Positions 13,964 to 37,222 of a DNA stretch of 44,240 bases are shown in pieces. The position numbers were made by a program, and so were the translations under genes. The notes beneath the pieces are model-generated. The model was not told the origin of the DNA. It ran no database searches and worked only from the letters and a program-made list of their open reading frames with translations. The stretch covers positions 1-44,240 of IMG/VR virus record IMGVR_UViG_3300042090_003246; one strand, given 5' to 3'. The number at the start of each line of letters is the position of its first letter. Position 1 is the first letter of the stretch. The DNA comes from a virus.

Positions 13964-13981
13964 GGTGAAGTTGTTCACCCT
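13964..13981 (+). promoter_or_regulatory. 18-bp inverted motif, copy 1 (upstream of lysis genes)
   Basis: GGTGAAGTTGTTCACCCT, with GGTGAA and TTCACC as a 6-bp inverted repeat around GTTG. It lies 80 bases before the endolysin start. Copies recur at 23747-23764 (inverted) and 37205-37222. Proposed activator-binding site of late promoters; inference. Confidence 0.6.
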
Positions 13982-14061
13982 GCATTCGGGATCGCTCCGC
14001 TCCTAAGCCTGATCGCGCAGGCCGCTTTGCGGCCTTTCTCGAAGGCTTCGGAGCGCTTCCC

Positions 14062-14901
14062 ATGTGGCCTGGCTTTGACGGCACGCTCTATAGCCGCGAG
14101 CAGTTCGCCGCCCACGTCGCCGCGCTGACGATCGGCCCTTACGCCAAATTCATCGTCATGCACGGCACCGGCTCGCCGACGCTGAAGCAATGGCAAGAGA
14201 CGCCCGAAGCGCAGCGCGTCGCCAATTTGCAGCGCTACTACGAGACCAACCTCGGCTGGCAGCACGGCCCGCACCTGTTCATCGGCCCCGACCACATCGT
14301 CGGCTTCAGCGATCTGCGCGTCCGCGGCACGCACTGCTCATGCTGGAATTTCTCCTCGATCGGCATCGAGACCGCCGGCAATTGGAACACCGAGGATTTC
14401 AACAGCGGCGACGGCGCCAAGGTGCGCGACAACTTCGTCTTCGCCGCGGCGGTGCTGCACAAGCATCTCGGCCTGCGTCCCGACGGCTATGTCAAGGGCG
14501 TCTCCGGACTGCACCTGCACCGCGAGTGCGCCGCCGACGGACACTTTGAATGCCCGCACGCCGCGGGCGGCGCCTTCGACAAAGACGACATCGTCAAACG
14601 CATCCTCGCCGCGATGGATGCGTTGCCCGCGCTCGTTCCCAACCCGGCGCTGGTCGCCACGGCCGCCAGGCTGACAGCGACGCCGCCGGCCGGCCCGGCG
14701 GAAGGTTCGGTCGCCTGGCTGCAACTGCGCCTCAACGCCTTCGGCGCGGCGCCGACGCTCAAAGTCGACAACGACTGGGGCGAGCTGACCCGCAACGCGA
14801 TGCGCGCCTTCCAGACGACGCACGGGCTGACGCCGACCTGGTCGCCCGACCCGGCGACCGTCGCCGCGCTGCGCGAGGAACCGGCCGCCAAGGCGGCTTG
14901 A
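14062..14901 (+). CDS. Endolysin: N-acetylmuramoyl-L-alanine amidase with peptidoglycan-binding domain
   Basis: A 279-residue protein without a signal peptide. Residues about 25-175 are an amidase_2/PGRP-type domain: YAKFIVMHGTGSPTLKQW (zinc ligand His34), HLFIGPDHIVGFSDLRVRGT (substrate cleft), SSIGIETAGNW (Glu103) and GLHLHRECAADGHFECPH (His151/His153 and Cys164 as likely remaining ligands). Residues about 200-275 form a PG_binding_1 domain (VAWLQLRLNAFG ... NDWGELTRNAMRAFQTTHGL). It would cut the bond between muramic acid and L-Ala after reaching the periplasm with holin help. It is the first late gene, as in Mu where lys opens the late region. Confidence 0.9.
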   Translation: MWPGFDGTLYSREQFAAHVAALTIGPYAKFIVMHGTGSPTLKQWQETPEAQRVANLQRYYETNLGWQHGPHLFIGPDHIVGFSDLRVRGTHCSCWNFSSIGIETAGNWNTEDFNSGDGAKVRDNFVFAAAVLHKHLGLRPDGYVKGVSGLHLHRECAADGHFECPHAAGGAFDKDDIVKRILAAMDALPALVPNPALVATAARLTATPPAGPAEGSVAWLQLRLNAFGAAPTLKVDNDWGELTRNAMRAFQTTHGLTPTWSPDPATVAALREEPAAKAA

Positions 14902-14929
14902 AACGGGTTTCAAACCGAGGAGCAACGTC

Positions 14930-15112
14930 ATGAAGGGTTTTAAGACCGTCGCGTTTGGGCTGGCGCTCGTCGTCGTCCCGCCCGCCATCACCTATCTCGG
15001 CGGCGTCGACTGGACGTCGCTCGGCGTCTCGCCGGGCGTCTCCGCCGCGATCGGCCTCGTCGTCATCGGCCTGCGCGCGGTGACCAACTCCGCCATCGGC
15101 TCGAAGTCGTAA
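14930..15112 (+). CDS. Holin-like small membrane protein
   Basis: A 60-residue protein with two hydrophobic segments (VAFGLALVVVPPAITYLGG and SAAIGLVVIGLRAVTNSAIG) and charged ends. Size, topology and position directly after the endolysin suggest a class II-like holin. It has a CCGAGGAG ribosome site. No specific holin family is recognised. Confidence 0.65.
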   Translation: MKGFKTVAFGLALVVVPPAITYLGGVDWTSLGVSPGVSAAIGLVVIGLRAVTNSAIGSKS

Positions 15113-15117
15113 CGCCG

Positions 15118-15321
15118 ATGTCGCCGCAGCCCGCCGCCGAGTCCGCCGCGCCCTTCGCGATCGGCGACCTCGTCAGGCTCAATTCCGACCGCCTGCACAT
15201 GACGGTCAAGACGGTCGCCGGCGGCCGCGTCGTCGTCCGTTGGCATGACGACGATGGCGACCTGATCGAGGACGACTTCGACCCGCGCGAGCTGACCCTC
15301 GTGCGCAAGCGCGAGGCCTGA
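15118..15321 (+). CDS. YodC-like small protein (DUF2158)
   Basis: A 67-residue protein. FAIGDLVRLNSDRLHMTVKT followed by RVVVRWHDDDGDLIEDDFDP and ELTLV is the usual pattern of DUF2158/YodC proteins, a single small beta-barrel. The family is common in proteobacteria and prophages, and its role is not known. It starts 5 bases after the holin-like stop. Confidence 0.75.
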   Translation: MSPQPAAESAAPFAIGDLVRLNSDRLHMTVKTVAGGRVVVRWHDDDGDLIEDDFDPRELTLVRKREA

Positions 15322-15326
15322 CGCCG

Positions 15327-15995
15327 ATGCTGTCGCACGCCGCGCTCGCCGATCTTGCCGGGCGGTCCTATCGCGGGCCGTGGTCGGGGCGCGCGGCGTT
15401 CGACTGCGAATACGACCTGCTGCCGCGCGGCGACGACGAGCTCGTCGCCGTCATGCCCGGCACCAATCCGCTCGATCCGCTCGACTGGCTGCGCGACCTC
15501 AGCGCGGCGCCGCACTGGGTTCCCGGCGCGGGCCTCGTTCATGGCGGCTTCGGCCGCGGCGGCGAAGCGCTCTACGGCAAAGTCGCCCGCACGATCGCCG
15601 GCGACGATCGGCTGATTTCGCTGGTCGGCCATTCGCTCGGCGGCGCGCTGGCGCAGATGCTCGGCGCGCTGATCGCGGCGCGCCAGCCGGGGCGAAAGTT
15701 TCGCGTCGTCACGTTCGGCGCGCCGCGCGTCGGCTTTCTCAATCCGTGGCTCGGCCATCTCGTGCGCCAGGGCCTTCAGGCGGTCGAATACGCGCGGGCC
15801 GGCGATATCGTGCCGGAGCTGCCGTCGCGGCCGTTGTTCAACCATCCGACTTGGCCGCGCCCGATCGGCGCGCCGATCGCCGGCACGGCCGAGGCGCTGG
15901 CGCGGTTCGACGCGATCGGCCGCATCTGCCGCGAAATTCCCGCCAACCATTCGATCCAACGCTACGCGGCCGACCTCGCCGCGCTCGGGCTCTAG
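15327..15995 (+). CDS. Class 3 lipase-like alpha/beta hydrolase in the lysis cluster
   Basis: A 222-residue protein. The nucleophile elbow is LISLVGHSLGGALAQML (Ser103). The acid is in YARAGDIVPELP (Asp160), matching the NDIVPxLP motif of class 3 lipases, and the His is in PANHSIQRY (His208). FRVVTFGAPRVGF after the nucleophile is also typical of that family. The full triad argues for activity on esters such as membrane lipids. There is no signal peptide, so access to the envelope would depend on lysis or on packaging into the virion. It sits between the holin-like gene and the lipoprotein gene, hence a role in late envelope disruption is a reasonable guess. A cargo enzyme acting on the host is the alternative. 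Confidence 0.85.
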   Translation: MLSHAALADLAGRSYRGPWSGRAAFDCEYDLLPRGDDELVAVMPGTNPLDPLDWLRDLSAAPHWVPGAGLVHGGFGRGGEALYGKVARTIAGDDRLISLVGHSLGGALAQMLGALIAARQPGRKFRVVTFGAPRVGFLNPWLGHLVRQGLQAVEYARAGDIVPELPSRPLFNHPTWPRPIGAPIAGTAEALARFDAIGRICREIPANHSIQRYAADLAALGL

Positions 15996-16005
15996 GAGAC
16001 GCGAC

Positions 16006-16335
16006 ATGACGACGACCCGCATCAAGGCCAAGACGCCGACGCCGGCGAAGCGCGCGCCGAGGCGGCGCGCCGACGCGGTTTGCATCGAGCGCACTGTCGC
16101 CGCCGAACTCGCCGCGCTCCACTTGCTCGATGTGCGCATGTACCTGATGTCCTCGCGCGTCGAGCTGCTAGCGCAGAAAATCTGCGGCGGGAGCGGCGTC
16201 ACGCCGCCTCCCCGACCCGACGCCGAGAGACCGTCGGACCTGATCGCCGCTCTGAGCGCAACGCGCGCGCGTTTCCGCGACGCGCTCGATCGTTGCGCCG
16301 TCGCTGTCGATAAGGCGCTCGACGGCCTCCGCTGA
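16006..16335 (+). CDS. Hypothetical protein with basic N-terminus
   Basis: A 109-residue protein. The first 24 residues are Lys/Arg/Pro-rich (IKAKTPTPAKRAPRRRADAV) and likely disordered. The rest has two helical parts (ERTVAAELAALHLLDVRMYL and SATRARFRDALDRCAVAVDK) around a Gly/Pro linker. No family is recognised. It lies inside the lysis cluster with an AGGAG ribosome site. Confidence 0.6.
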   Translation: MTTTRIKAKTPTPAKRAPRRRADAVCIERTVAAELAALHLLDVRMYLMSSRVELLAQKICGGSGVTPPPRPDAERPSDLIAALSATRARFRDALDRCAVAVDKALDGLR

Positions 16336-16386
16336 TCTTCATCCGCGCGCCGGCGGCTTCCGGCGCTTTCCATTGAGGACTCGACC

Positions 16387-16797
16387 ATGCTCAAAGTCTT
16401 CGCGCCCGCCTATGCGATGATCGCGCTGGCGCTCGCGCTCACCTTCTCCGGCTGCTCGCAGACCGCGTTCAACCAGGGTCTGGCCAATATGCAGGCGGCG
16501 ACGCAAAGCGCCGTCGCGCTCAACAACGCGCTGGTGCAGATCGACATCACCATCGTCAACAATCTCACCGCGCAGGCCAAGCTGCTGGCGCCCTACCAGT
16601 GCGGCGCCTACGCGCTGGCGGCGTCGATCCTTTCCGACTCGTCGGCCGCGGCGAAGGTCAACGCCTATCTCGCCAAGGACCTCGCGGCGAATGTCGCCAA
16701 CGTCGCGGTCAAGGACATCTGCACGGCGGCGGGCTACCCGGCGACGGTGACCGCCGCGCCGGCGGCGAGCGCGACGCCGGCCGCTTCGGCTTCGTGA
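16387..16797 (+). CDS. Phage lipoprotein
   Basis: A 136-residue protein with a signal peptide ending in a lipobox: hydrophobic stretch AYAMIALALALTFSGC with the lipidated Cys at residue 23. The mature part is Ala/Asn-rich and helical (FNQGLANMQAATQSAVALNN), with a second Cys pair (YQCGAYALAA and DICTAAGYPA) and an Ala/Ser/Pro tail. In the lysis cluster an outer-membrane lipoprotein could serve as an outer spanin (Rz1-like), but it is longer than usual and not proline-rich in the usual way. Treat spanin as a possibility only. Confidence 0.75.
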   Translation: MLKVFAPAYAMIALALALTFSGCSQTAFNQGLANMQAATQSAVALNNALVQIDITIVNNLTAQAKLLAPYQCGAYALAASILSDSSAAAKVNAYLAKDLAANVANVAVKDICTAAGYPATVTAAPAASATPAASAS

Positions 16798-16798
16798 G

Positions 16799-17137
16799 AT
16801 GGCCGCGCCGATCGTCGCCTTCGTCATCGCGGCGCTGACCGGCGCCACGCTGGCCAAGGGGCCGGCGGCGCTCATCGCCGTCGACGCCGCCGCGGCGCGC
16901 GTCGTGGCGATCGAGAGCCAGGTCTGCCCGGCGGCGAGCCCGGCGGCGGCGGCGCTGGCGACGATCAAGGCGACGGGCGTCGTCGCGGCGATCCGGACGC
17001 GGCTGGCGCGCGACGCCGCGCTGGTCTGCGCCGATCGGCCGATCCAGAACACACCGGCGCGGCGGCTCGCCGCGGCGGCGAAGCTGCTGCTCGACATCGC
17101 CGAGGCGGACGGGCTGACGGCGAAGCTGAGGAAGTGA
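16799..17137 (+). CDS. Hypothetical exported or membrane-anchored protein
   Basis: A 112-residue protein starting 1 base after the lipoprotein stop. The N-terminus (APIVAFVIAALTGATLAKGP) is a hydrophobic signal or anchor. Two Cys (SQVCPAASPA and ALVCADRP) may form a disulfide in the periplasm. The C-terminal part is helical. It might pair with the preceding lipoprotein as a two-component spanin, which is a guess from order and topology. Confidence 0.6.
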   Translation: MAAPIVAFVIAALTGATLAKGPAALIAVDAAAARVVAIESQVCPAASPAAAALATIKATGVVAAIRTRLARDAALVCADRPIQNTPARRLAAAAKLLLDIAEADGLTAKLRK

Positions 17138-17144
17138 GGGGGCG

Positions 17145-17465
17145 ATGCTCGATTGGAGCGAGATTTGGCAGGGTTTGAGCGCGGCGGGTTCGATCAGCGC
17201 CGTGGCGCTCTCGCTCTATGCCGCGGCGACGGCGCGCAACCGCCGCGACGTCGGCGAGTTGCGCGAGTCGCGCGACGATCACGAGTCGCGCCTGACCAAG
17301 CTCGAAAGCACCGTCGAGCACCTGCCGGACGGCGACACCGTGCATGCGCTGAAGCTGGCGATCACGGAAATGAAAGGCCAGATCGACGTCATCGTCGAGC
17401 GCGTCGCGCCGATCAAGGCGATCGCCGAGCGGTTGCAGGAAAGCATGCTGGAGAATCATCGGTGA
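17145..17465 (+). CDS. Mu gp25-like protein (DUF2730)
   Basis: A 106-residue protein. An N-terminal membrane segment (GLSAAGSISAVALSLYAAAT) is followed by a coiled coil (about 40-100; VGELRESRDDHESRLTKLES). This is the architecture of the DUF2730 family found in Mu-like prophages next to the terminase genes. The function is unknown. Anchor plus coiled coil also resembles inner spanins, which may deserve thought given the lipoprotein upstream. It overlaps the next gene by 4 bases. Confidence 0.75.
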   Translation: MLDWSEIWQGLSAAGSISAVALSLYAAATARNRRDVGELRESRDDHESRLTKLESTVEHLPDGDTVHALKLAITEMKGQIDVIVERVAPIKAIAERLQESMLENHR

Positions 17466-17764
17466 GTCTGTCGGCGATCATGGAGCACGAGGCGCGGCTG
17501 GTCGCGTTGCGCCTGCTGGCCGAGCAGTCGGACGGGCGGCTCAATTCATCGCTGCTGCGCGACGAACTGGCCGAGCGCTGGGCGATCAACCGCACCCGCG
17601 AATGGCTGCACACCCAATTGCGCTATCTCGCCGATTTGGGCGCCGTGCATCTGACCGAAGCGGGCTCGGTGCTGATCGCCGAAATCACCCGGCGCGGGCT
17701 CGACCACGTCGAGCGGCGCATCGCGCTCGACGGCGTCAAGCGGCCCTCGCCGCCGGAGATCTGA
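17462..17764 (+). CDS. Mu gp26-like winged-helix protein
   Basis: A 100-residue protein from GTG 17462. It contains a winged-helix pattern: ARLVALRLLAEQSDGRLNSS, LRDELAERWAINRTREWLHT, then QLRYLADLGAVHLTEAGSVL. Proteins of this type occupy the gp26 slot of Mu-like phages, between the DUF2730 protein and the small terminase. DNA binding is probable from the fold. Confidence 0.75.
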   Translation: MSLSAIMEHEARLVALRLLAEQSDGRLNSSLLRDELAERWAINRTREWLHTQLRYLADLGAVHLTEAGSVLIAEITRRGLDHVERRIALDGVKRPSPPEI

Positions 17765-17765
17765 G

Positions 17766-18347
17766 ATGGCCAGCGCGGATCGCCTCGGCCGCGGCCGCCT
17801 GTCGTCGCTCGATATGGCGCCCGACGAGGCGCAAGACGACATTTTTTGGGCGATGGGCGAGCTCAACGCGCGCAAGCGCACCCAGGCCGAGATCCTGTCG
17901 GATCTCAACGGCCGGCTCGCCGACAAGAACTGCCCGCTGATCAGCAAGAGCGCCTTCAACCGCAAGGCGATGCGCGTCGCCGCGGCGGCGGCGCGCCTTT
18001 CCGAACGCCGGGCGCTGTTCGAAGGCCTGGCGCCACAGTTCACCGCCGAGCGGATGGACGAGGCCAACGTGGTCATCGGCGAGCTGATCAAGACGCTGAT
18101 CACCGAAATGCTCGACGCCGACGCCGGGACCTTCACGCCGAAAGGGGCGATGGAGCTGGCGCGGGCCCTCAAGCACAGCGTCGAGGCGCAGACGATTTCC
18201 AGCGAAGCCAAGCGGCGGGCGCTCGACGCGGCGAGCCGCAAGGTCGGCGAGGCGGTCGAGAAGGTCGCCAAGGAGAAGGGCATCACCGCCGAGACGCGGG
18301 CCAAGATCATGGAGCAGCTCGGCGTCATCCGCAGGAGCGAGGCATGA
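17766..18347 (+). CDS. Small terminase-like protein (DUF3486, Mu gp27)
   Basis: A 193-residue protein. The N-terminal part is RGRLSSLDMAPDEAQDDIFW followed by a DNA-binding-like region (RTQAEILSDLNGRLADKNCP, ISKSAFNRKAMRVA). The C-terminal half is a long helix (ISSEAKRRALDAASRKVGEA). This matches DUF3486, found directly before the Mu-type large terminase and taken as the small terminase subunit. It shares ATGA with the next small gene. Confidence 0.85.
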   Translation: MASADRLGRGRLSSLDMAPDEAQDDIFWAMGELNARKRTQAEILSDLNGRLADKNCPLISKSAFNRKAMRVAAAAARLSERRALFEGLAPQFTAERMDEANVVIGELIKTLITEMLDADAGTFTPKGAMELARALKHSVEAQTISSEAKRRALDAASRKVGEAVEKVAKEKGITAETRAKIMEQLGVIRRSEA

Positions 18348-18547
18348 TCTGGGCGACCGCGGCGGTGATGATCTTCCTCGGCGTCGTGATGATGCTCGAC
18401 GAGCGCGCCGACCACGCGCACGAGCATGAGGGCATGGTCGACGACGAAGGCGGAGCGGCACAGTGGGCCGTTGGCCTGGTCGTCGTCGCCTGCGGCGCAT
18501 TGGTGCTGATCGGCGCCGTGCGCGACGCGCTCAGCGGCGCGGGGTGA
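18344..18547 (+). CDS. Small membrane protein inserted between the terminase genes
   Basis: A 67-residue protein with two hydrophobic segments (MIWATAAVMIFLGVVMML and QWAVGLVVVACGALVLIGAV) separated by an acidic, His-rich loop (DERADHAHEHEGMVDDEGGA). The loop could bind metal. No family is recognised. Overlap with the small terminase stop supports translation. Confidence 0.6.
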   Translation: MIWATAAVMIFLGVVMMLDERADHAHEHEGMVDDEGGAAQWAVGLVVVACGALVLIGAVRDALSGAG

Positions 18548-18551
18548 GACG

Positions 18552-20171
18552 ATGAGCGCGCTGCCGACGGCCGCCGAGATCGCCTCGGCGCGCGCCATCA
18601 CCGAGAAGGAATGGGCGGAGCTTCGCCGAACCTCGCTGATCGCCGGGCCAGGCCTCGACGGCCGCGCCTCGCTCGGCGCGATCCTGCTCGGCTATCAGCA
18701 GAAGCTGCTGGCGACGACCGCCAAGTTCCGCGTGACGATCGTCGAGAAGTCGCGCCGCACCGGCGCGACCTGGGGCGTCGGCGCGCAGGCCGTGTTGACC
18801 TCGGCCTCGGCGCGCGCCGAAGGCGGGATGGACAGCCTGTACATCGGCTACAACCTCGATATGGCGCGCGAGTTCATCGACTGCTGCGCGATGTGGGCGC
18901 GGGCGTTCGACGAGGCGCTGGTCGAAGGCGGCGTCCAAGACTTCATGTTCGACGACGGACCGGACAAGGGCATCTCGGCCTTCCGCGTCCGCTTCGCGTC
19001 CGGCTTCGAGATCGTCGCCCTGGCTTCGCGGCCGCGGTCGCTTCGCGGTCGCCAGGGCTTCGTGATCATCGACGAGGCGGCGTTCCACGACGAACTGAAA
19101 GAGCTGATGAAGGCGGCGCTGGCGCTGCTGATCTGGGGCGGCCGGGTGCTGGTCATCTCGACCCACAACGGCGAGGACAATTACTACAACGCGCTGGTCA
19201 AGGAAGCGCGGTCGGGGAGCAAGGGCTACGGCTTCGTCCGCTTCGACTTCGACGACGCGCTGAAGGATGGGCTCTATCAGCGCGTCTGCCTGCGCACCGG
19301 CGAGACCTGGTCGGTCGAGGCCGAAGCGACCTGGCGCGCCGGCATCATCCGCGAATACGGCGACGCCGCCGACGAAGAGCTGTTCTGCATCCCGAGCGAG
19401 GGCTCGGGGACATGGCTGCCGGGGCCGCTGATCGAGGCGCGCGCCCGGCCGGGCATTCCGGTGCTGCGGCTGACCCGGCCGACTGCGTTCACCTTCTGGC
19501 CGGCGCACTTGCGCGAGGTCGACGTCGAGGCGTGGTGCGAGCGCGAGCTGCTGCCCGTGCTGAAGACGCTCGACCCGGCGTTGTGGCATTACGCCGGCGG
19601 CGACTATGGCCGCATCTCCGATCTCACCGTGCTGTGGGTGCTGGCGATCGCCCGCACGCTGCGGCGGATCACGCCGTTCGTCGTCGAGATGCGCGGCATC
19701 CCGTTCGACCAGCAACGCCAGGTGCAGAAGTACGTCCTGGCGCGCCTGCCGCGCTTCGGCGCGTCGAAGCACGACGCGACCGGGCTCGGCATGTCGATGG
19801 CCGAATACGTCCAGCAGGATTTCGGCGCGCTGCGCTGCGAGGCGGTCAAGCTGTCGGTCGAGTGGTATCGCGAGAACGCGCAGCCGCTGAAAGCGGCGTT
19901 TGAAGACGACGCGATCGAGATCCCGGCCGACGCCGACATCGCCTCGGATCTTCGCCTCGTCCAGGTCAAGGGCGGCGTGCCGTTCATGCCGGCGGTCAAG
20001 AGCGGACAGGCGAAGGATCGCCACGGCGACTCGGCGGTGGCGCTGATGCTTGCCTATGCGGCGACCCGCGCGGCGATGATCGCCTACGACTACGACAGCC
20101 CGCGCACCGCGCGCGAAGAGCGGCCGGACGAAGACGAAGACGAGCGGCGCGGCAAGGAGGGGTTGTGGTGA
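18552..20171 (+). CDS. Large terminase subunit (Mu gp28-like)
   Basis: A 539-residue protein. The ATPase part has a Walker A-like VEKSRRTGATWGVG (about 64-77) and Walker B FVIIDEAAF (about 170-178), then coupling motif LVISTHNG. The nuclease part has an Asp in HYAGGDYGRISDLTVLWVL (about 345-363) and a C-terminal acid in KDRHGDSAVALMLA (about 490-503), as expected for an RNase H-like terminase nuclease. It drives headful packaging of prophage plus flanking host DNA in Mu-type phages. The C-terminal tail is acidic/basic (EERPDEDEDERRGKEG). Confidence 0.95.
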   Translation: MSALPTAAEIASARAITEKEWAELRRTSLIAGPGLDGRASLGAILLGYQQKLLATTAKFRVTIVEKSRRTGATWGVGAQAVLTSASARAEGGMDSLYIGYNLDMAREFIDCCAMWARAFDEALVEGGVQDFMFDDGPDKGISAFRVRFASGFEIVALASRPRSLRGRQGFVIIDEAAFHDELKELMKAALALLIWGGRVLVISTHNGEDNYYNALVKEARSGSKGYGFVRFDFDDALKDGLYQRVCLRTGETWSVEAEATWRAGIIREYGDAADEELFCIPSEGSGTWLPGPLIEARARPGIPVLRLTRPTAFTFWPAHLREVDVEAWCERELLPVLKTLDPALWHYAGGDYGRISDLTVLWVLAIARTLRRITPFVVEMRGIPFDQQRQVQKYVLARLPRFGASKHDATGLGMSMAEYVQQDFGALRCEAVKLSVEWYRENAQPLKAAFEDDAIEIPADADIASDLRLVQVKGGVPFMPAVKSGQAKDRHGDSAVALMLAYAATRAAMIAYDYDSPRTAREERPDEDEDERRGKEGLW

Positions 20172-20455
20172 CCCGGCGGACGATGCGTTTCAAGGCGACG
20201 ATCTCGGCCGCCGAGGGGCGCGAGTCTATGCGGCTCGAGCGCGAGCGCTTGCGGCGCGAACTCGAGGAGCGGGCGCGGCGCGACGCCTGCGCGGCGCATC
20301 GCTTCGTTCGCGTCGAGGCCGAGCCGCCGAGCTGGTATTGCCCGAAGTGCAACGCGCCGGCCGGGCTCGACTACGTCAGAGGCTTCGTCAGCGGCCTGAT
20401 CGCCGCCGGCGCGGACCCGTCTGCCTCCGTCGCCGACTATGGAACCTGGCCATGA
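20168..20455 (+). CDS. Small zinc-ribbon-like protein
   Basis: A 95-residue protein from GTG 20168 (a GTG at 20165 is the alternative), overlapping the terminase stop. It has a charged helix (ESMRLERERLRRELEERARR) followed by a possible half zinc finger (ACAAHRFVRVEAE ... WYCPKCNAPAGLDYVRG). No family is recognised. It overlaps the portal start by 4 bases. Confidence 0.6.
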   Translation: MTRRTMRFKATISAAEGRESMRLERERLRRELEERARRDACAAHRFVRVEAEPPSWYCPKCNAPAGLDYVRGFVSGLIAAGADPSASVADYGTWP

Positions 20456-22104: not shown

Positions 22105-22107
22105 GCC

Positions 22108-23487: not shown

Positions 23488-23718
23488 TCAGCTGCGGCCG
23501 AAGCCGAAATGGGCCTGGCAGCGCTGATGGAGATCGAGCGTCGCGCGGTGCGGGCAGCCGGCCGTCAGCTCGGCGAGGAAATCGACCAGGCGCAGGTCGC
23601 CGCGCTCAGCGACCAGCCGAGCGACCGCATAGTCGCCATGGCGGCCGCAGCGGTCGCAGGCGACGACCAGGCGCGCCTGGCGCACGTCGGAGAGGGTCTG
23701 CGATCCTTGTCGGGGCAT
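23488..23718 (-). CDS. Small Cys/His-rich protein, the only leftward late-region gene
   Basis: A 76-residue protein from the ATG at 23718. It carries Cys21-x2-Cys24 (VVACDRCGRHGDY), Cys55 (TAGCPHRAT) and Cys67 (LHQRCQAHFGFG), with His at 57, 64 and 70, so a zinc site is plausible. Short proteins with a CxxCxxxG(R/D)Y start and a CP.R ... H.RC..HF end occur in alphaproteobacterial genomes; no function is known to me. The inverted copy of the 18-bp motif lies 28 bases upstream in the matching orientation. It may be a moron-type insertion between the F and protease genes. A Com-like regulatory role is possible by analogy with the zinc-binding Mu Com, but there is no sequence likeness. Confidence 0.7.
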   Translation of the reverse strand: MPRQGSQTLSDVRQARLVVACDRCGRHGDYAVARLVAERGDLRLVDFLAELTAGCPHRATLDLHQRCQAHFGFGRS

Positions 23719-23746
23719 CGGGAAGCGGCGGCGGTCTGACGCTCGC

Positions 23747-23764
23747 AGGGTGAACAACTTCACC
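23747..23764 (-). promoter_or_regulatory. 18-bp inverted motif, copy 2 (inverted orientation)
   Basis: On the minus strand this is GGTGAAGTTGTTCACCCT, with matching flanks to copy 1 (CTTT before, GC after, 24 bases identical). It sits between the leftward Cys/His-rich gene (28 bases to its ATG) and the rightward protease gene (36 bases to the likely GTG), where Mu has its C-dependent PI promoter. A role in either or both directions is possible. Confidence 0.6.
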
Positions 23765-23800
23765 AAAGCGGCGGCGCGTCGCGTTCGGCCAATTAGCCAC

Positions 23801-24817
23801 GTGACCGAGAAAACCGCAACCCCCTTGCTAGCGCTCTGCGACGCCGCAGCTTCAGCGGCCGCCGGCGTCGCCATCGCCCTCGCGGCGGAGAGCGGCGCGC
23901 CGGATTGGGTGCAGCTCATGCCCTCCGGTCCGACGCTGCAGGGGCGCGACGGCCGCATCTGGAGGGTCGACGATGTAAACCGTCTGGTCGCTCAGTTCTC
24001 GCCGCCGTTCGTCATCGACTACGAGCACGCCCAGGACCGCCTGGCGGTCAACGGGCAGGAAGCGCCCGCCGCCGGCTGGATTGAACAGCTCGATGTGCGG
24101 AACGGCGGCGAGATCTGGGGACGCGTCGAATGGACGCCGCGCGCCAAGCTCGCCATCGCGGCGCGCGAATACCGCTTCATCTCGCCCGCCTTCACCTTTT
24201 CGCCGGCCGACGGCTCGGTTCAAGCGCTGATCGGCGCGAGCCTGGTCAACCGGCCGAATTTCGTCATGACCGCCCTCAACGCGCAGGAGCACTCGATGTT
24301 GAAAGAGATCGCCGCCGCCCTCGGCCTGGCCGATACGGCGACTTCGCCCGAAATCGTCACGGCGATCGCCGCGCTGAAGACGTCGACCGCGCTCAACGCC
24401 GCCCATCAGCCCGACCTCGCCAAGTTCGTGCCGCGCGCCGACTACGAGCTGGCGCTCAACCGCGCGACGACCGCCGAGGCACAGATCGAAGCCGACCGCA
24501 AAGCGGCGCACGCCGCCAAGGTCGCCGCGGCGATCGACGGCGCGATCAAGGCGGGCAAGGTCGCGCCGGCGTCGCGCGAGTATTTCCTCGCCACCTGCGC
24601 GACCGAGGCCGGCCTGGCCGAATTCGAGAAGTACGTCGCCAAGGCGCCGACCGCGTTGTTCAAGGAAATCGTCGACCCGAAGAAAGACGAGCCCGGCGCC
24701 GCGGGCGTCGCGCTCAATTCCGAACAGCTCGCCGTCGCCAAGGCGCTCGGCATCGATCCGAAGGCGTTCGCCGCCGACATCGCCAAGCGCGCCGCCGCGC
24801 GCGCCGAAGCCGCCTGA
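23801..24817 (+). CDS. Head maturation protease/scaffold (Mu gpI)
   Basis: A protein of 338 residues if begun at GTG 23801. The frame is open to an ATG at 23750, but that ATG lies within the 18-bp motif and would encode MNNFT from it, so I prefer the GTG; neither has a strong ribosome site. The N-terminal protease part has PDWVQLMPSGP, GRIWRVDDVN, FVIDYEHAQD (Asp and His of the family), AAGWIEQLDVRNGGEIWGRV and YRFISPAFTF, then IGASLVNRPNF. The C-terminal half is a helical scaffold (ADYELALNRATTAEAQIEAD). It guides capsid assembly and cleaves itself and head proteins. Confidence 0.9.
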   Translation: MTEKTATPLLALCDAAASAAAGVAIALAAESGAPDWVQLMPSGPTLQGRDGRIWRVDDVNRLVAQFSPPFVIDYEHAQDRLAVNGQEAPAAGWIEQLDVRNGGEIWGRVEWTPRAKLAIAAREYRFISPAFTFSPADGSVQALIGASLVNRPNFVMTALNAQEHSMLKEIAAALGLADTATSPEIVTAIAALKTSTALNAAHQPDLAKFVPRADYELALNRATTAEAQIEADRKAAHAAKVAAAIDGAIKAGKVAPASREYFLATCATEAGLAEFEKYVAKAPTALFKEIVDPKKDEPGAAGVALNSEQLAVAKALGIDPKAFAADIAKRAAARAEAA

Positions 24818-26367: not shown

Positions 26368-26392
26368 ACCGTCTTCCCTCTCGGAGAACACC

Positions 26393-26611: not shown

Positions 26612-26617
26612 CCCGCT

Positions 26618-26697: not shown

Positions 26698-26715
26698 CCT
26701 TCCGGAGTTGTGCTC

Positions 26716-28794: not shown

Positions 28795-28807
28795 AAGGGC
28801 TTTTGAA

Positions 28808-29170: not shown

Positions 29171-29171
29171 C

Positions 29172-30436: not shown

Positions 30437-31161
30437 GCGCGACCGACCTTCTGCCGCCCAACGCGACGCCGCTCGAAAGCGCGCACAGCGCCGAGGACAA
30501 TCGCATCCTCGCCGCCGACGTCGACGCGATCCGCCGCGAGCGCGATCCGACGCGCTGCGACGCCGCCTTCGTCGCGCCGCTGGCCTGGGAGCGCAGCATT
30601 CATTTCTGGGACCCGAACGACGACGCGGCCAATCGCGCCCGCGTCGCGTCGAGCTTCGCCGACCACGGCGCCTACGGTTCGCCGCCGGCGCTTGAAGACG
30701 AGATCGCGCTCGACGCCGGCCTGCCGGTCAAGGTGCGCGAGTTCTTCGAGCTGGCGCGGCTCGTCTGGCCGGAATTCACCGTCGACGTCGCGGTCGAACT
30801 GCAGGGGGCCGAGCCTCTCGTCATCGCCTCCGCCGCATGGGCCGGCGGTTTCGCGCCGCTCGGCGCGTCTGGGCCGCCCGGCGCGACGATCGCCGCGCCG
30901 CTGCCAGCGGCTTCGGCGATCGATATCGCTGCGGTCACGGCCTCGGCGTTGGCGCGCAAGAACGTTCGTGACGTGCTCGCCGCGGTGCGCTTGGTCGCGA
31001 ATCAGCCGGCGTCGCCGCTCTACGTCGGCGCGGCGGCGAGCGTGCGGCCGAGCGTCACGGTGCTGCCGTTCGGGCTGCCGAAGCCGGCGCCGCAGCTCTT
31101 CGTCGGCGCGGCGAGCCGCGTGCTGCCGACGTTCACAGTTTTGCCGTTGAGGGCGACATGA
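30433..31161 (+). CDS. Tail protein I (P2 gpI-like) with a repeat tail
   Basis: A 242-residue protein. The N-terminal part has LPPNATPLESAHSAEDNRIL, CDAAFVAPLAWERSIHFWDP and ARVASSFADHGAYGSPPALE, as in the P2 gpI family. The C-terminus has two near-copies of one unit (LYVGAAASVRPSVTVLPFGL and LFVGAASRVLPTFTVLPLRA), visible also in the DNA at 31018-31155, and absent from P2. It joins the fibre to the baseplate. The stop overlaps the fibre start. Confidence 0.85.
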   Translation: MSATDLLPPNATPLESAHSAEDNRILAADVDAIRRERDPTRCDAAFVAPLAWERSIHFWDPNDDAANRARVASSFADHGAYGSPPALEDEIALDAGLPVKVREFFELARLVWPEFTVDVAVELQGAEPLVIASAAWAGGFAPLGASGPPGATIAAPLPAASAIDIAAVTASALARKNVRDVLAAVRLVANQPASPLYVGAAASVRPSVTVLPFGLPKPAPQLFVGAASRVLPTFTVLPLRAT

Positions 31162-32474
31162 CCCAAGTCTACGCGACGCAGACGACCCAATATTTCGACA
31201 ACCTGATCGCTGCGGCGCAGGCCGGCGGATCGCCGGCCAACCTGACCGGCGGCGCGCTGGTGGTCGGGGACGGCAATGGCGCGGTGCCGACGATCTCGGC
31301 GCTGATCGCCGCCGGCGGCGTGACGCACGAAGTGTGGCGCGGCCAGGTCATCCAGTCGGTGACCGTCGACCCCAACGCCGCCAATCAGATCGACGTCGCG
31401 GTCGACATTCCCGCGTCGAGCGGCGGGGCGGAGATCGGCCCGTTCACCGTCACAGAATTCGCCATCCTCGACGCGCTCGGCCACTGCTGCATCGTCGGCA
31501 CCACCAATTTCGAAAAGACGGTGTCGTCGCAGGGCCAGACCTGCGACCTGGCGTGGAACGTCGCGGTGGTCGTCGCTTCGACCAGCGCCGTGACGATCAC
31601 GCCGCCGAACGGCGGCTTCGCGACGATGGCGCAGGTGATCGCCGGCTACAACGCCAATCTCCCCGGCGTCGCGGCGCCGATCACCAAGAGCGACACGACG
31701 AGCGCCGCCGGCTGGACCGACCGCACGATCGGCATCGCGGCGGCGGCGCAGCCGGTCGACGCAGTGACGCCGGCGTCGAGCACGGCGGCGATGGGTTCGG
31801 GGCGACCGGCCTCGCCGGCGGAGTGGGCGGCTGGCGCGCCGACCGCCGGCGGCTTCGCCTGGCCGTGGCCGACCCTCCAACAGGTCAGCGCGGCGCTGGC
31901 GGCGATCTGGACGGCGATCAACGGGCTGCCGCAGTCGCTGGCCGGCTACCTGCCGCTTGGCGGCGGCACGATGCAGGGCATGCTGGCGCTGTTCGCCGAT
32001 CCGACGGCGGCCGCGCACGCGGCGACCAAGCGCTATGTCGACGCCGCGATCTCCGCCCTGGCGACGGCGCTCGGCGGCTATCTGCCGCTCGCCGGCGGGA
32101 CGATGACGGGCCCGCTGATCACCGCGCGCGACCCGCAGAGCGGCAAGGAGGCGGCGAACAAGGAATACGTCGACGCCGCGGCCGTCAACCCGTTCAGTTC
32201 GACGGGCGTCGGCGCGATGATCCAGCTCGTCGCCGCCGGTGGCGTCAATGTAACGCCGTCGTCGGCCTTCATTGGCCAAACAGCATCGTGGGTTTGGCAG
32301 GTGTCGACGCAGCCGATGAGCGCCAGCTGTGGGCCGACGAGTTGCTTGTTCAGCGACGCGCGGTGGACCTACCCCAACATGCCGGCCGGCGTATGGACCT
32401 GCATCTCCGCCGCCTCGTTGCAGAGCGGCGCGAACCCGCAAACCTGCCTCGTGACCTTGAAGCGCACCTCGTGA
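31158..32474 (+). CDS. Tail fibre protein
   Basis: A 438-residue protein. The N-terminal 150 residues follow the P2 H-type start (TQTTQYFDNLIAAAQAGGSP, LVVGDGNGAVPTISALIAAG ... EIGPFTVTEFAILDALGHCC). Two shaft repeats follow: YLPLGGGTMQGMLALFADPT with AATKRYVDAAI, and YLPLAGGTMTGPLITARDPQ with AANKEYVDAAA. The C-terminal part has six Cys (QPMSASCGPTSCLFSDARWT, CISAASLQSGANPQTCLV), which suggests disulfides or metal in the tip. It is part of the receptor-binding apparatus. Confidence 0.88.
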   Translation: MTQVYATQTTQYFDNLIAAAQAGGSPANLTGGALVVGDGNGAVPTISALIAAGGVTHEVWRGQVIQSVTVDPNAANQIDVAVDIPASSGGAEIGPFTVTEFAILDALGHCCIVGTTNFEKTVSSQGQTCDLAWNVAVVVASTSAVTITPPNGGFATMAQVIAGYNANLPGVAAPITKSDTTSAAGWTDRTIGIAAAAQPVDAVTPASSTAAMGSGRPASPAEWAAGAPTAGGFAWPWPTLQQVSAALAAIWTAINGLPQSLAGYLPLGGGTMQGMLALFADPTAAAHAATKRYVDAAISALATALGGYLPLAGGTMTGPLITARDPQSGKEAANKEYVDAAAVNPFSSTGVGAMIQLVAAGGVNVTPSSAFIGQTASWVWQVSTQPMSASCGPTSCLFSDARWTYPNMPAGVWTCISAASLQSGANPQTCLVTLKRTS

Positions 32475-32545
32475 TCCGCCGCCCGGCGGCCGCCGCCGAA
32501 CGCGACCATTCCGTGGCGCGGCGCGCCGACCCAGTCGAGGGATGA

Positions 32546-32926
32546 ATGACAACCGCCATCCTCGCCCTGCCGCAGATCTCCGGCTCGCTGACGATCGCGA
32601 CCAACGCCGACCTGCGCGCGGCGCTGCAATTCACGCAAGCCGGGTCGAGCGCGCCGCTCGATCTCACCGGGATTGCGTTTCACATGCAGGTGCGGCCGAC
32701 GGCGGGGTCGTCGGCCATCGCGCTCGACCTGTCGACCGCCAACGGGCTGCTGACCAATGGCGGGACGAACGGGCTGTTGAGTTGGCTCGTTCCCGCGGCG
32801 CAAGTCGCGCAGATCGCGGCAGGCGCCTATGTCGCCGACCTGATCGCCGAGGGCGACGGCGCCGTCGTCAATCTCTGCCAGGCCGCGCCGCTGACGGTGA
32901 CCGTCGTCGAGGGCGTCACATGCTGA
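32546..32926 (+). CDS. BppU-like N-terminal domain protein
   Basis: A 126-residue protein (LPQISGSLTIATNADLRAAL then APLDLTGIAFHMQVRPTAGS). The sequence resembles the N-terminal domain of baseplate upper proteins, a small beta fold that attaches receptor-binding parts. Ribosome site GAGGGA at 32537. It overlaps the next start by 7 bases. Confidence 0.6.
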   Translation: MTTAILALPQISGSLTIATNADLRAALQFTQAGSSAPLDLTGIAFHMQVRPTAGSSAIALDLSTANGLLTNGGTNGLLSWLVPAAQVAQIAAGAYVADLIAEGDGAVVNLCQAAPLTVTVVEGVTC

Positions 32927-33450
32927 CGATCTCGGCCGCGCCGTCGCCGTTGAGCGTCGCCGCCGCCGCGGCGAGCCTGGCGATCGCCGCCGCTTCGCCG
33001 TCGCCGTTCCTGGCCGGCGGCGCGGGTCAGGTCGCCAGCGTCGTCGCCGCGCCGAGCGGCGCCAGCGTCGCCGCGCAAGCGGGCGGCGTCTCGGTTTCGG
33101 GGCAAAGCGCCGCCGCGCTGGCGCTGACGCTGCAAGCGGTCAGCCTCGCGCCGGTCGACGGCGAAGTCGCGATCGACGTCTCGCAGGGCAATACGTTCGT
33201 CGTGGCGATGAACGCCGCGGCGGCGGTGCGCTTCGTCAATTGGCCGGCCGGGCGCGCGCAGCGGGTCGCGGTCTATTTCGTCCAGGACGCGGTCGGCGAT
33301 CGCGTCGCGAGCTGGCCGCCGGTGAAGTGGCCGGACGGCCAGCCGCCGATGCTGTCGACGGCGCCCGGCGCGATCGACTGCGTGGTGTTCGACACGTTCG
33401 ACGGCGGCGAAACCGTGTTCGCCAACCTGGTCGGCGAAGGCTACGCCTGA
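32920..33450 (+). CDS. Ala/Ser-rich tail-associated protein
   Basis: A 176-residue protein starting at ATG 32920, 4 bases before the preceding stop codon. The first 80 residues are low-complexity Ala/Ser/Val (SPLSVAAAAASLAIAAASPS), then a beta-rich domain VDGEVAIDVSQGNTFVVAMN and FVNWPAGRAQRVAVYFVQDA ... WPDGQPPMLSTAPGAIDCVV, a pattern often seen in phage tail proteins. Function unknown; it stands in the fibre cluster. Confidence 0.6.
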   Translation: MLTISAAPSPLSVAAAAASLAIAAASPSPFLAGGAGQVASVVAAPSGASVAAQAGGVSVSGQSAAALALTLQAVSLAPVDGEVAIDVSQGNTFVVAMNAAAAVRFVNWPAGRAQRVAVYFVQDAVGDRVASWPPVKWPDGQPPMLSTAPGAIDCVVFDTFDGGETVFANLVGEGYA

Positions 33451-33461
33451 AAGGGGTTCGA

Positions 33462-33863
33462 ATGTCCATTCAATTCTCGGTCGCGGTGCGCAATGCGCAG
33501 CTCGCCGCAATCTTCGCCACCATCGGCGCGGCGGCGAAGCTGCTGCTCTACGCCGGCGCGCCGCCGGCCAATTGCGCGACCGCCGACTCGGGCGCGCTGC
33601 TGGCGACGCTGACGCTGCCGAGCATGGAAGAGAACAGCGCCGCCGGCGGCTCGGAGTCGCAGGCGAACGGCCCATGGACCGGCGTGGCGAGCGCGGCGGG
33701 CACGGCGGGGCATTTCCGCGTCATGGACCCGACCGGCGCGACCTGCCACGTGCAGGGCACGGTCGGTCAGGGCTCGGGCGATCTCGCCTTCGACAACCCG
33801 ACCTTCGCCGTCGGCCAGAACATCCAGATCACCTCATTCACTCTGACTGATGGGAACGCCTGA
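33462..33863 (+). CDS. Hypothetical tail-cluster protein
   Basis: A 133-residue protein (MSIQFSVAVRNAQLAAIFAT) with KLLLYAGAPPANCATADSGA, TLTLPSMEENSA and CHVQGTVGQGSGDLAFDNPT, beta-rich. Similar short proteins often stand next to fibre genes of alphaproteobacterial phages and prophages; the role is unknown. Its stop overlaps the next start by one base. Confidence 0.65.
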   Translation: MSIQFSVAVRNAQLAAIFATIGAAAKLLLYAGAPPANCATADSGALLATLTLPSMEENSAAGGSESQANGPWTGVASAAGTAGHFRVMDPTGATCHVQGTVGQGSGDLAFDNPTFAVGQNIQITSFTLTDGNA

Positions 33864-35224
33864 TGGTTCAGCTCGTCGACCGCGCCAAGATGACGGTGGC
33901 GACCGCGCCGGGGGCGGGCGTGGTCGCGCTCGGGGCCGCCGTCGCCGGCTACCAGTCCTTCGCCGCCGCGGGCGTGGCCAACGGCGCCGCCATCTCATAC
34001 GTAATCGAGGACGGCGCCAACTGGGAATACGGCCATGGAACGTATTCATCGACCGGCCCGACTCTGACGCGTACCACGATCCTCGGCTCGTCGAACGGCG
34101 GCGCGGCGATCGCGGCGTCGGCTGCGGCGCTCGTCTTTGCCTCGGTGCTCGCCGAGGACCTGCAGCCGTTCGCCGGCGACTCCGGCTCGGGCGGCGTGGC
34201 GGGCATGGTTCCGGAGCCCCCGGCCGGCGCGGCGGCTTCCAATCTGGTCCTCGGCGCGGGCTCGACGCCATGGGTCGGCCGGATGGCCGGCTTCCGCAAT
34301 CGCCTCATCAATGGCGCATTCGACGTTTGGCAGCGTGGGACAACGTTCACGCCCCTCGGCGCTTCTCCGTACACCGCCGACAGATGGGTTTGCGTTCGCT
34401 ACGCCGACGTTGGCAACTTCGTCCTCTCGAAGGCGACGGGAATATTGCAGAACGGCGTCAACCGCAGCGCCCTGCACGTTCAGCGCACGCCTGGCGACAC
34501 GATAACAGCGAACCCGATCTGGCTTTCACAGTCTGTCGAGTCGCTCAACTGTCACGACCTCGCAGGCCAAGACGTCACGCTGTCCCTCTACGCCCGCGTC
34601 GGCGCCAACTTTTCGTCTCCGAACTTGAGCGTGGCTCTTCGTTCCGGAACCGGAACCGACGAGCGCGCCGGAGCTTATACCGGAGACGCTCTCGTCGCCT
34701 CGCTCAACGTCCCTCCTTCGCAGACGACCTATGCAAGGTTCTCCTGCACGGGAACGCTCGCCGCCAACGCCAACGAGTTGGGCGTGTTTATCACTTACGG
34801 CCCGACAGGGACGGCGGGGGCGAACGACTGGTTCGAAATCCTCGACGTGCAGCTCGAGCCGGGTCAAGTCGCGACGCCCTTCGAGCGCCGACCGATTGGC
34901 GTCGAACTGGCGCTGTGCCGGAGGTACGCCAGGCCCGCGGGCGCCGGGATGGGCGGCCGCGTCAATACCTCGACGATGATTGAATTGTGGGGGGCAATTT
35001 CTCCGCCGATGCGCGTGTCGCCCTCCGCTACGCTCGGCGGCTTTACGGGGGCGTCGACGACAATCGAACAGGTGGGGGTCGGCAACATAACCACGACCGC
35101 TATTTGGAGCAGCCTAACGACGCCCGACTCGATGGATTTCAATTTCACGGTCTCGGGCGCGGGGGGCGGGAATATGGCGGCCGTGATCTCGGGCGATCTT
35201 GTCTTTCTCTCGGCGGAGCTTTGA
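33863..35224 (+). CDS. Putative receptor-binding tail protein
   Basis: A 453-residue protein. The N-terminal 110 residues are an attachment part (AAISYVIEDGANWEYGHGTY, LTRTTILGSSNGGAAIAASA). From about 145 comes a carbohydrate-binding-like domain with the widespread fibre-tip pattern NRLINGAFDVWQRGTTFTPL ... YTADRWVCVRYAD, and FEILDVQLEPGQVATPFERR, then LALCRRYARP. The DNA from about 34300 to 35224 is visibly less GC-rich, with codons such as TCT, ATA and TTT, unlike its neighbours. This is a common sign of exchanged receptor-binding sequence. Confidence 0.75.
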   Translation: MVQLVDRAKMTVATAPGAGVVALGAAVAGYQSFAAAGVANGAAISYVIEDGANWEYGHGTYSSTGPTLTRTTILGSSNGGAAIAASAAALVFASVLAEDLQPFAGDSGSGGVAGMVPEPPAGAAASNLVLGAGSTPWVGRMAGFRNRLINGAFDVWQRGTTFTPLGASPYTADRWVCVRYADVGNFVLSKATGILQNGVNRSALHVQRTPGDTITANPIWLSQSVESLNCHDLAGQDVTLSLYARVGANFSSPNLSVALRSGTGTDERAGAYTGDALVASLNVPPSQTTYARFSCTGTLAANANELGVFITYGPTGTAGANDWFEILDVQLEPGQVATPFERRPIGVELALCRRYARPAGAGMGGRVNTSTMIELWGAISPPMRVSPSATLGGFTGASTTIEQVGVGNITTTAIWSSLTTPDSMDFNFTVSGAGGGNMAAVISGDLVFLSAEL

Positions 35225-35226
35225 CA

Positions 35227-35670
35227 ATGAACTACACATTGCAACCCGCGCCCTCGACCTCCATCACCCGCGACGCCGCGACGCCGACGGCGCTTTCCAT
35301 CCCCGCCGACGTCGGCAACGCCGATTGGCGAGCTTATCAGGCGTGGCTCGCCGCGGGCAACGCGCCCAACCCCGCGCCGGCCGGCCCCGCGCCGGTTCCG
35401 ACCGCCCTGCTGTGGCAGCTCGAGGCGGCGTGCGAGGGCGCCGCGTCGGCCGCCGCGCTCGGCTTCACCCCGCCGACCTGGGCGCAAGTGCAGGCGGCGG
35501 TCGCGGCGCAGAACAGCCCGGCGCTGACGGCGTTCTTCAATGTCGGAACGAACGCGATCCCGGCCGACTCGACGACGCTGCTCGCTCTCGCCGCCGCGTT
35601 GCCGTCGCCGCTGACGGCGGCGCAAGTGACGGCGCTGGTCGCGGCGGCGGCGGCGGTCGCGATCGACTGA
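35227..35670 (+). CDS. Tail-fibre-assembly-like protein
   Basis: A 147-residue protein. It begins MNYTLQPAPSTSITRDAATP and has NADWRAYQAWLAAGNAPNPA, a motif common in small proteins encoded after fibre genes. The middle has LWQLEAACEGAASAAALGFT and the end is Ala-rich. A chaperone or fibre-accessory role is suggested by position. The start is 2 bases after the preceding stop. Confidence 0.6.
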   Translation: MNYTLQPAPSTSITRDAATPTALSIPADVGNADWRAYQAWLAAGNAPNPAPAGPAPVPTALLWQLEAACEGAASAAALGFTPPTWAQVQAAVAAQNSPALTAFFNVGTNAIPADSTTLLALAAALPSPLTAAQVTALVAAAAAVAID

Positions 35671-35693
35671 GGCTGCACACGGCGCAATAACCC

Positions 35694-36494
35694 ATGCTCG
35701 GCTTCGCCGCCCTCGCCAAGCTGCCGCTCAGCGCTTCCGTGCAGGCGGCGGGGTCGCTCGCCGCAGGCGCGCTGGCGCCGGCGGCGCTCTCCGGCGGCGC
35801 TGAGGGCGTCGCGACCGGGACGCTCAGCGGTCCGGCGATCTCTGGCTCGGGGGCGCTCGGTTCGGCGCCGCTCGGCGGCGTCGCACTCAGCGCTTCGCTG
35901 GCGCCGGTCAAACCGGTCGCCGACGCGACCCTCTCGGCCGCGGCCTCCGCACCGGCGACGGGTTCGCTCGCGTCGGCGCTCCGCGACGCAACGCTCGACG
36001 CGACAGCGTTCGCGCTGGCGAGCGCCGCCGAAGGCTCGACGCTCGACGGCGCGGCGTTATCGGCTGCAGCTTCCGCTCTGTCGACGGGCGCTCTCGCCGA
36101 GGCGCTGGCGGCGGCGACGTTGGCCGCCGCGGCGATCGCTCCAGCGACTGGGGGCGAAGCCTCGACGCTTCTCCCTGTAAACCTCTCGGCCTCGGCTTCC
36201 TCGCCAGCGACGGGTTCGCTCGCGGCGGCGCTCGCCGTTGCGACGCTCGACGCGAACGCGTTCGCGCCGTCGAGCGCCGCCGAAGGCTCGACGCTCGACG
36301 GCGCTACGACCGCCGCCGACGCCGCAGCGATGGCTTCGGCGGCGCCATCCGTCACGCTCGCCGACGTGACGGCGTCGTCCGCCGGGTTTGGGCTCGCCCG
36401 CGGCGCCGTCGTGACCGAGCTCGCCGCCGCGACCCTCGGCGCGACGGCGTGGCGTCGCTCGAAATATCGCCCAGCCGCGCTGCTCGCGGCGTGA
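35694..36494 (+). CDS. Ala/Ser repeat protein of the fibre region
   Basis: A 266-residue protein made almost wholly of Ala, Ser, Leu, Gly and Thr. From about residue 80 it shows a repeat of about 21 residues, roughly ATL-x-A-x-A-x-AP-x-TG-slaaaLa. Examples are ATLSAAASAPATGSLASALR, ATLAAAAIAPATGGEASTLL, and two long near-copies, DATLDATAFALASAAEGSTL and VATLDANAFAPSSAAEGSTL. The first 80 residues hold a looser version. Regular spacing suggests a solenoid or beta-roll. The C-terminus (WRRSKYRPAALLAA) is basic. It is not a recognised family; it may be a fibre or decoration element. Confidence 0.65.
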   Translation: MLGFAALAKLPLSASVQAAGSLAAGALAPAALSGGAEGVATGTLSGPAISGSGALGSAPLGGVALSASLAPVKPVADATLSAAASAPATGSLASALRDATLDATAFALASAAEGSTLDGAALSAAASALSTGALAEALAAATLAAAAIAPATGGEASTLLPVNLSASASSPATGSLAAALAVATLDANAFAPSSAAEGSTLDGATTAADAAAMASAAPSVTLADVTASSAGFGLARGAVVTELAAATLGATAWRRSKYRPAALLAA

Positions 36495-36507
36495 GGAGGA
36501 AAGACGC

Positions 36508-37209
36508 ATGAGACGAGTTTGCCTCGCTCTCGCCGGCCTCGCGCTGCTGATCGGCGGCGGCTCCGCCGAGGGCGCCGGACGCGGCGGGGCGCCGGCGCCG
36601 TCGCTCTATGCGCCAGCCTGGCGCGACGGCGCGCCGGCGATCGTCGGGCGCGCGGCGTGGGAGGGCGGCTCGCGGATCGTCGCCGAGGCGCAGCAGTGGA
36701 TTGGCTCGGCCAATCCGACCGGAACGATCGGGCCGTGGTGCGCCGATTTCGCCAGCTTCGTGTTGCAGCGCGTTGGCTTGCCGCCGCTGCCGAACCGTAT
36801 GGCGTCAAGCGCGCTTCGCTACGGGCCGCACACCGACGCTCCACGGCGGGGCGATCTGGCGGTCATGCCGCATCACGTCGGCTTCGTCGCCGGCGTCGAG
36901 CCGGGCGGGACGATCGATTTGCTGTCGGGCAATTACGGTCGCCGCGTCGCGCTGGCGCACGTGTCGCGCGCAGCGTTCGTCGCCTTCGTCGCCGTCGGCG
37001 AGGCCGCGACGCCATCAGGGAGCGCCCATCATGATCGAAAGCGTCGTTTGGTTCATCTGCGGCGCGTCGTTCCTCGCGGCGCTCATCGTTTTGAACGCGC
37101 CGTTCCGGCGCCGACAGGGCTATCAGCCGCAGCCTGGGCCACGCCCGAAGCCGCCAACCTGTGGCGGCGGCGTTCGTTGACGGAAGGGGATGCTGCGCGG
37201 CGCTGGTGA
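36508..37209 (+). CDS. Exported CHAP-like amidase/peptidase
   Basis: A 233-residue protein. The N-terminus is a clear signal peptide (MRRVCLALAGLALLIGGGSA). The catalytic domain has Cys78 in GTIGPWCADFASFVLQRVGL, His123 in GDLAVMPHHVGFVAGV and Asn142 in DLLSGNYGRRVAL, the triad of CHAP-type (NlpC/P60-related) peptidoglycan hydrolases. The last 65 residues (SAHHDRKRRLVHLRRVVPRG) look unlike a natural domain end and overlap another frame with a membrane peptide (37031-37180). The stop lies inside copy 3 of the 18-bp motif. A lost stop or frameshift near 37020 is possible. It may help cell-wall penetration or lysis. Confidence 0.75.
   Translation: MRRVCLALAGLALLIGGGSAEGAGRGGAPAPSLYAPAWRDGAPAIVGRAAWEGGSRIVAEAQQWIGSANPTGTIGPWCADFASFVLQRVGLPPLPNRMASSALRYGPHTDAPRRGDLAVMPHHVGFVAGVEPGGTIDLLSGNYGRRVALAHVSRAAFVAFVAVGEAATPSGSAHHDRKRRLVHLRRVVPRGAHRFERAVPAPTGLSAAAWATPEAANLWRRRSLTEGDAARRW
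37031..37180 (+). CDS. Small membrane peptide overlapping the CHAP gene end
   Basis: A 49-residue frame from ATG 37031 with GGGAGCG as a possible ribosome site. It has one hydrophobic segment (IESVVWFICGASFLAALIVL) and a basic, Pro-rich tail (RRRQGYQPQPGPRPKPP). It lies wholly inside the end of the CHAP frame, one frame over. Topology and codon use look more natural than the CHAP tail, so I think it is real. Confidence 0.5.
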   Translation: MIESVVWFICGASFLAALIVLNAPFRRRQGYQPQPGPRPKPPTCGGGVR

Positions 37210-37222
37210 AGTTGTTCACCCT
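37205..37222 (+). promoter_or_regulatory. 18-bp inverted motif, copy 3 (upstream of sheath operon)
   Basis: GGTGAAGTTGTTCACCCT, identical to copy 1 over 18 bases with different flanks. It is 83 bases before the sheath start, at the place of the P2 PF promoter that serves FI-FII-E-T-U-D. Supports a late-promoter role. Confidence 0.6.

Follow-up and report, generated by a model that had tools for sequence, protein, structure and literature searches.

A 16-bp dyad as the probable operator of a Mor/C-family activator at three late promoters of a Mu-like phage, with a related arrangement in DMS3 and D3112

Comparison of DNA sequences led us to conclude that the dyad GGTGAA-N4-TTCACC is very probably bound by the Mor/C-family activator that the phage itself encodes, which would drive three late promoters from it. 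The window, by which we mean the whole virus record analyzed here (44,240 bases, 69.5% GC), is the stretch that all dyad counts cover, and in it the three dyads lie in gene gaps, namely between the activator and lysis genes, 5′ of the head protease and 5′ of the tail sheath (Table 1). The sites, their conservation, their places in the gene order and their fixed spacing to a −10-like element can all be read directly from the DNA.

A first-pass annotation of this DNA had described an 18-bp motif in three copies, the second inverted, and its coordinates proved exact. The 24 bases that it gave as common to copies 1 and 2 are indeed there, as the 24-mer CTTTGGTGAAGTTGTTCACCCTGC, and it was right that there is no further copy: the 18-mer has three exact places in the window and no other match at up to three mismatches, and shuffled sequence contained none. 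It had also set the sites at boundaries between gene blocks, with which the labels of the neighboring genes (activator, amidase, gpF-like, protease, tail fibre and sheath) agree. It is the 16-bp dyad that appears to be the working unit; it occurs in the window three times without a mismatch, never with one, once with two and 27 times with three, and the three real sites therefore stand apart from the background. Site 2 is inverted with respect to the plus-strand gene downstream of it, and site 3 overlaps the final codons of the ORF at 36508–37209.

Table 1. Activator boxes, predicted promoter elements and neighboring genes in the window.
Feature	Position	Strand	Details
Mor/C-type late transcriptional activator, 138 aa	13516..13932	+	phrog_836, E 8.8e-15; predicted dyad binder
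Activator box 1, GGTGAAGTTGTTCACC	13964..13979		exact 18-mer 13964-13981 (+); 5′ of lysis amidase; same place in L004-L010
Predicted −10 of box 1, TAAGCC (relatives TAATCC)	14004..14009	+	predicted RNA start ~14016
Lysis amidase, first gene of late unit 1	14062..14901	+	Amidase_2 and PG_binding_1
gpF-like	22108		
Activator box 2, GGTGAACAACTTCACC on +	23749..23764		exact 18-mer 23747-23764 (−); 5′ of head protease
Predicted −10 of box 2, CCAATT	23789..23794	+	predicted RNA start ~23801
Head maturation protease	23801..24817	+	phrog_328; GTG start
Tail fibre	33863		
Activator box 3, GGTGAAGTTGTTCACC	37205..37220		exact 18-mer 37205-37222 (+); 5′ of tail sheath; kept in L147-L151
Predicted −10 of box 3, CGAAGG/GAAGGT	37245..37251	+	predicted RNA start ~37257; weakest of three
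Tail sheath, first gene of late unit 3	37306..38547	+	phrog_23

The protein encoded at 13516 is related in sequence to the Mor/C family, since in addition to its phrog_836 match, a profile of ten diverse activators compared with the PDB matched Mu C (9l0x, E 1.7e-5) and Mor (1rr7, E 1.2e-4); against Pfam at a threshold of 0.01 the protein gave no match. An AlphaFold model of the activator (pLDDT 82) displayed the expected helices, including the C-terminal ones, and the C-terminal helix-turn-helix part could be traced across all members in the activator alignments. Foldseek with this model returned Mu C first and Mor third, weakly (best E 0.31, TM below 0.4), and at that E value we rejected the structure search alone as proof of family membership.

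Seven records with activators 78–99% identical to that of the window were taken as its nearest relatives, and the exact dyad was found in all seven. A scan of the window and its Mu-like relatives, which the first-pass annotation had proposed, found the dyad in the relatives at the corresponding boundaries: G005 (30.9 kb) and G006 (37.7 kb) each carry three dyads, after the activator, 5′ of the protease and 5′ of the sheath, and relatives recruited via the sheath and gpF genes provided additional copies at sites 3 and 2, respectively. Across the window group the arms were invariant, while seven different N4 spacers were observed (GTTG, CTCG, GAAC, CAAC, CAAT, CAAA, and AGGT), with four different spacers at site 2 in relatives; the spacer ACCT was left out of these seven, as it comes from the distant phage G010, which has the core GAC/GTC. 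The flanks were more variable than the arms, except for a block 20–35 nt downstream.

We aligned the sites on their core and scored the −10 hexamer at 60 offsets in 20 lineages/sites, using weights based on E. coli promoters. Offset 28 stood out as the single clear peak of the profile (score −2.35), and its score was reached in 0 of 2000 permutations; the next scores were at offset 5 (−3.44) and offsets 27 and 26 (about −4.6), and 797 other core matches from the same genomes showed no −10 peak. A sigma70-like −10 thus begins 26–29 nt past the dyad core (the inner half-site), and a −10 at offset 28 would therefore put the dyad centre at about −44.5. The window group alone peaked at 29 and 28, and when it was left out, offset 28 was outscored only by offset 5, immediately next to the box. 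In Rhizobium phage RR1-B, which was initially left out, offset 27 was third best, behind two offsets in a T-rich stretch adjoining the box. No sigma70 −35/−10 pair was found at site 1, and the predicted layout agrees with that of a Mor/C-dependent promoter, in which a dyad is centred near −43.5, the −35 is weak or absent and a −10 is present.

We propose that the activator would bind each dyad as a dimer, centred about 44 bp 5′ of the RNA start, that it would substitute for the missing −35 contact, and that it would bring in host RNA polymerase at a weak −10. Lysis and packaging genes would thereby be switched on from site 1 together with head genes from site 2 and tail genes from site 3, and we predict that the protease mRNA made from site 2 has no leader. 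That the 13516 protein binds the dyads, that it activates transcription and where the RNAs start are predictions, and the pairing of dyad with activator is suggested by position and co-variation. Among the points against this proposal are the poor −10 of site 3 and the 5-base spacer that RR1-B needs. The first-pass annotation had likewise interpreted the sites as activator operators, and this probable interpretation gained backing from the relatives' boundaries, from the invariant arms with variable spacers, from outer dyad bases that change in phages with other activators and from the fixed −10 distance.

The distant set consisted of phages with a gpF 30–47% identical and a phrog_836 activator, in which we read the DNA 3′ of the activator gene; these sites were selected after the pattern was known, that of G029 partly after its −10 had been seen. 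In distant phages, whose activators are 15–40% identical, the activator gene is followed by a dyad of related form, GA[A/C]-N4-[G/T]TC, with other outer bases: GCGTGAA-N4-TTCACGC in G035, TGGAA-N4-TTCCA in G039, GGAACCCCTTCC in G013, and GGTGAC-N4-GTCACC in G010. Several of them (DMS3, D3112, RcapMu, and RR1-B) repeat their changed dyad 5′ of the protease. The box of DMS3 and D3112, GTTGAACCCCTTC, has its core 54 bp past the activator stop and its second copy upstream of the protease, RcapMu has CCGGAC-N4-GTCCGG at both places, and RR1-B has four near-identical dyads with a 5-base spacer, located after the activator and before the protease, the tape measure and a baseplate gene. The TGACCGGAACCGAGTTCCGGTCA dyads of RR1-B (L320) lie at 11533, 18997, 26074, and 31111, with T-rich DNA following three of them, and could be an activator box, a terminator or both. 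CCGGAC-N4-GTCCG also follows the activator in L332 and L333, which were found later and fall outside the definition of the rule.

A core with at least two extra symmetric base pairs was present within 160 bases after the activator in 7 of 31 records, compared with control frequencies between 0.4 and 2.4% each. No symmetric core of this kind follows the phrog_836-type activator in Mu, KS10, TJ1, Aussie, B23, or StM171, and the rule therefore covers part of the family. A core match after the Mu C gene was not counted, being without flanking symmetry, and the dyads after the activator in G018, G022, G024, and G017 were kept out of the interpretation. G017 (L294/L295) contains TTAAAG-N2-CTTTAA five times (joined-stretch positions 2481, 6631, 12839, 18825, and 26499), mostly in seemingly intergenic DNA, and this is possibly the late operator of its own phage. 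A per-genome search for repeated dyads gave noise in the GC-rich phages, the dyads named above excepted, and among the matches listed in a pattern scan of viral contigs with GGTGAANNNNTTCACCCT, most were chance-like and the scan was not used. A tblastn search of INPHARED with the window activator gave no match, a distant member being needed as query, and two scans of genome_contigs with the activator turned up no host genome. The ten diverse activators, once aligned, had diverged too far to support a locus search. Beyond Mu itself, we lean toward a family-wide rule for Mu-like phages, in which a GA[A/C]-N4-[G/T]TC box lies beside the activator gene and 5′ of the head protease, the −10 begins 26–29 nt past the core, the outer bases co-vary with the activator, and several late genes, the protease first, are read from leaderless mRNAs that begin at the start codon.

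It is improbable that the dyads work instead at the RNA level, as hairpins for termination or processing where transcription units end, even though each can fold (6-bp stem, 4-base loop, −6.4 kcal/mol) and the corresponding boundaries in RcapMu and RR1-B carry repeated hairpins that are stronger and have T-rich tails. As the first-pass annotation had said, no T-run follows any of the three window sites, which are thus unlike the GC-rich hairpin plus T-run of a terminator, and no terminator was called at site 1. Within the group the stem bases are invariant, without compensatory changes, whereas the loops vary, which therefore argues for DNA recognition by a protein and not for an RNA hairpin; for these reasons the terminator reading was rejected, and hairpins would also leave the −10 spacing unexplained. 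The T-rich tail of RR1-B falls in the promoter spacer, with the −10-like element still at offset 27, and Mu lys and mom likewise have 6 T in the spacer (PMC4461284).

We give still less credence to the dyads being operators through which the CI-like immunity repressor (3196–3960, minus strand) silences the late genes in the prophage: dyads in promoter regions could serve a repressor, and site 2 lies between two divergent genes, but the early control region lacks the late motif at up to three mismatches and contains a repeated dyad of another sequence, TGGCG-N6-CGCCA, with copies at 3901 and ~3985, on which ground this reading was rejected. The least probable idea, that the phage exploits sites of a host regulator, is at odds with a dyad that varies with the activator between phages and stays beside the activator gene across different hosts. 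The TGGCG-N6-CGCCA repeat (3901–4010) adjoins the CI-like repressor gene and is likely the immunity operator, distinct from the late dyad. At the left end of the window, a histidine kinase gene on the minus strand (1–2415) resembles the host flank of a prophage.

For activator operators of the kind we favor, Mu offers two precedents. At Pm, which has no usable −35, Mor occupies a 16-bp dyad with its centre at −43.5 (PMC4287176); the promoters driven by C are lys, I, P, and mom, where its sites either overlap the −35 or lie upstream of it (PMC4461284). The window resembles Mor/Pm in its predicted Mor/C-family dimer, its 16-bp dyad near −44 and its −10 without a −35 (PMC4287176), but whereas the Mor site of Mu serves one middle promoter, the window repeats one site at three predicted late promoters. 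It resembles the C system in that one activator would serve several late promoters with weak −10s, including those before lysis and protease I (PMC4461284), and differs in its operator sequence, in a third promoter 5′ of the sheath and in a protease mRNA predicted to be leaderless. Unlike in Mu, no Mor-to-C cascade is visible in the window, in which one activator was found. The first-pass annotation had treated all three places as expected promoter places by analogy with known phages; the lysis and protease places do match Mu, while the sheath place does not, as the C-dependent promoters of Mu number four and none precedes the sheath gene (PMC4461284), and the third place is therefore equivalent only in function. 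The predicted promoters thus lie 5′ of lysis, protease I and tail genes, as in the Mu late regulon, with the third not at the position of Mu P.

DMS3 and D3112 (P. aeruginosa, Casadabanvirus) are like the window in that one box follows the activator, another precedes the protease and a −10 stands at offset 27, and unlike it in that the box is asymmetric and present in two copies and there is no sheath promoter. Software-predicted promoters have been placed at corresponding positions in this group, in a report whose main text describes no shared activator site (PMC4378225). RcapMu and RR1-B share with the window a repeated dyad that follows the activator and precedes the protease, as well as a −10-like element spaced roughly as expected, and differ from it in longer, GC-rich arms, in a T-rich spacer that could also terminate and, in RR1-B, in the four copies. 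On this sequence evidence, the dyad is an apparently new operator serving a type of activator that is already known, and the rule extends to DMS3 and D3112. Late-gene control by Mor/C proteins is known mainly from Mu, and operator and promoter geometry are now testable in DMS3 and D3112, which are widely used in CRISPR and anti-CRISPR work.

The GTG of the window protease coincides with the predicted +1, and its mRNA is therefore likely leaderless. In relatives, the protease start codon, GTG or ATG, lies either there or one position on, and neither the window nor its relatives showed a visible Shine-Dalgarno sequence at these starts. Start codons fell at offsets 39–41 in 8 of 24 lineages/sites, which made this the top three-base window (0.33 vs. 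a mean of 0.08); examples at offset 40 are a likely protease ATG in G013, the annotated ATG of the RR1-B baseplate gene and an in-frame protease ATG in DMS3 (L316), which would give a protein of 365 aa. In the window, sites 1 and 3 are followed by leaders of the ordinary kind. The rule predicts corrected gene starts in DMS3, with the protease beginning at 19037 and not at the annotated 19163. Two DMS3 ORFs, an unannotated one of 115 aa (10261–10608) and that of the protease (19037–20134), both start 39–40 nt past a core.

The anti-CRISPR insertion spot is predicted to lie directly upstream of a late promoter; it is in the gap between gpF and the protease that DMS3 and D3112 carry anti-CRISPR genes. 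In the window, this gap contains a small Cys-containing ORF on the minus strand (23488–23718), without a family match, which may be an accessory gene adjacent to the predicted late promoter.
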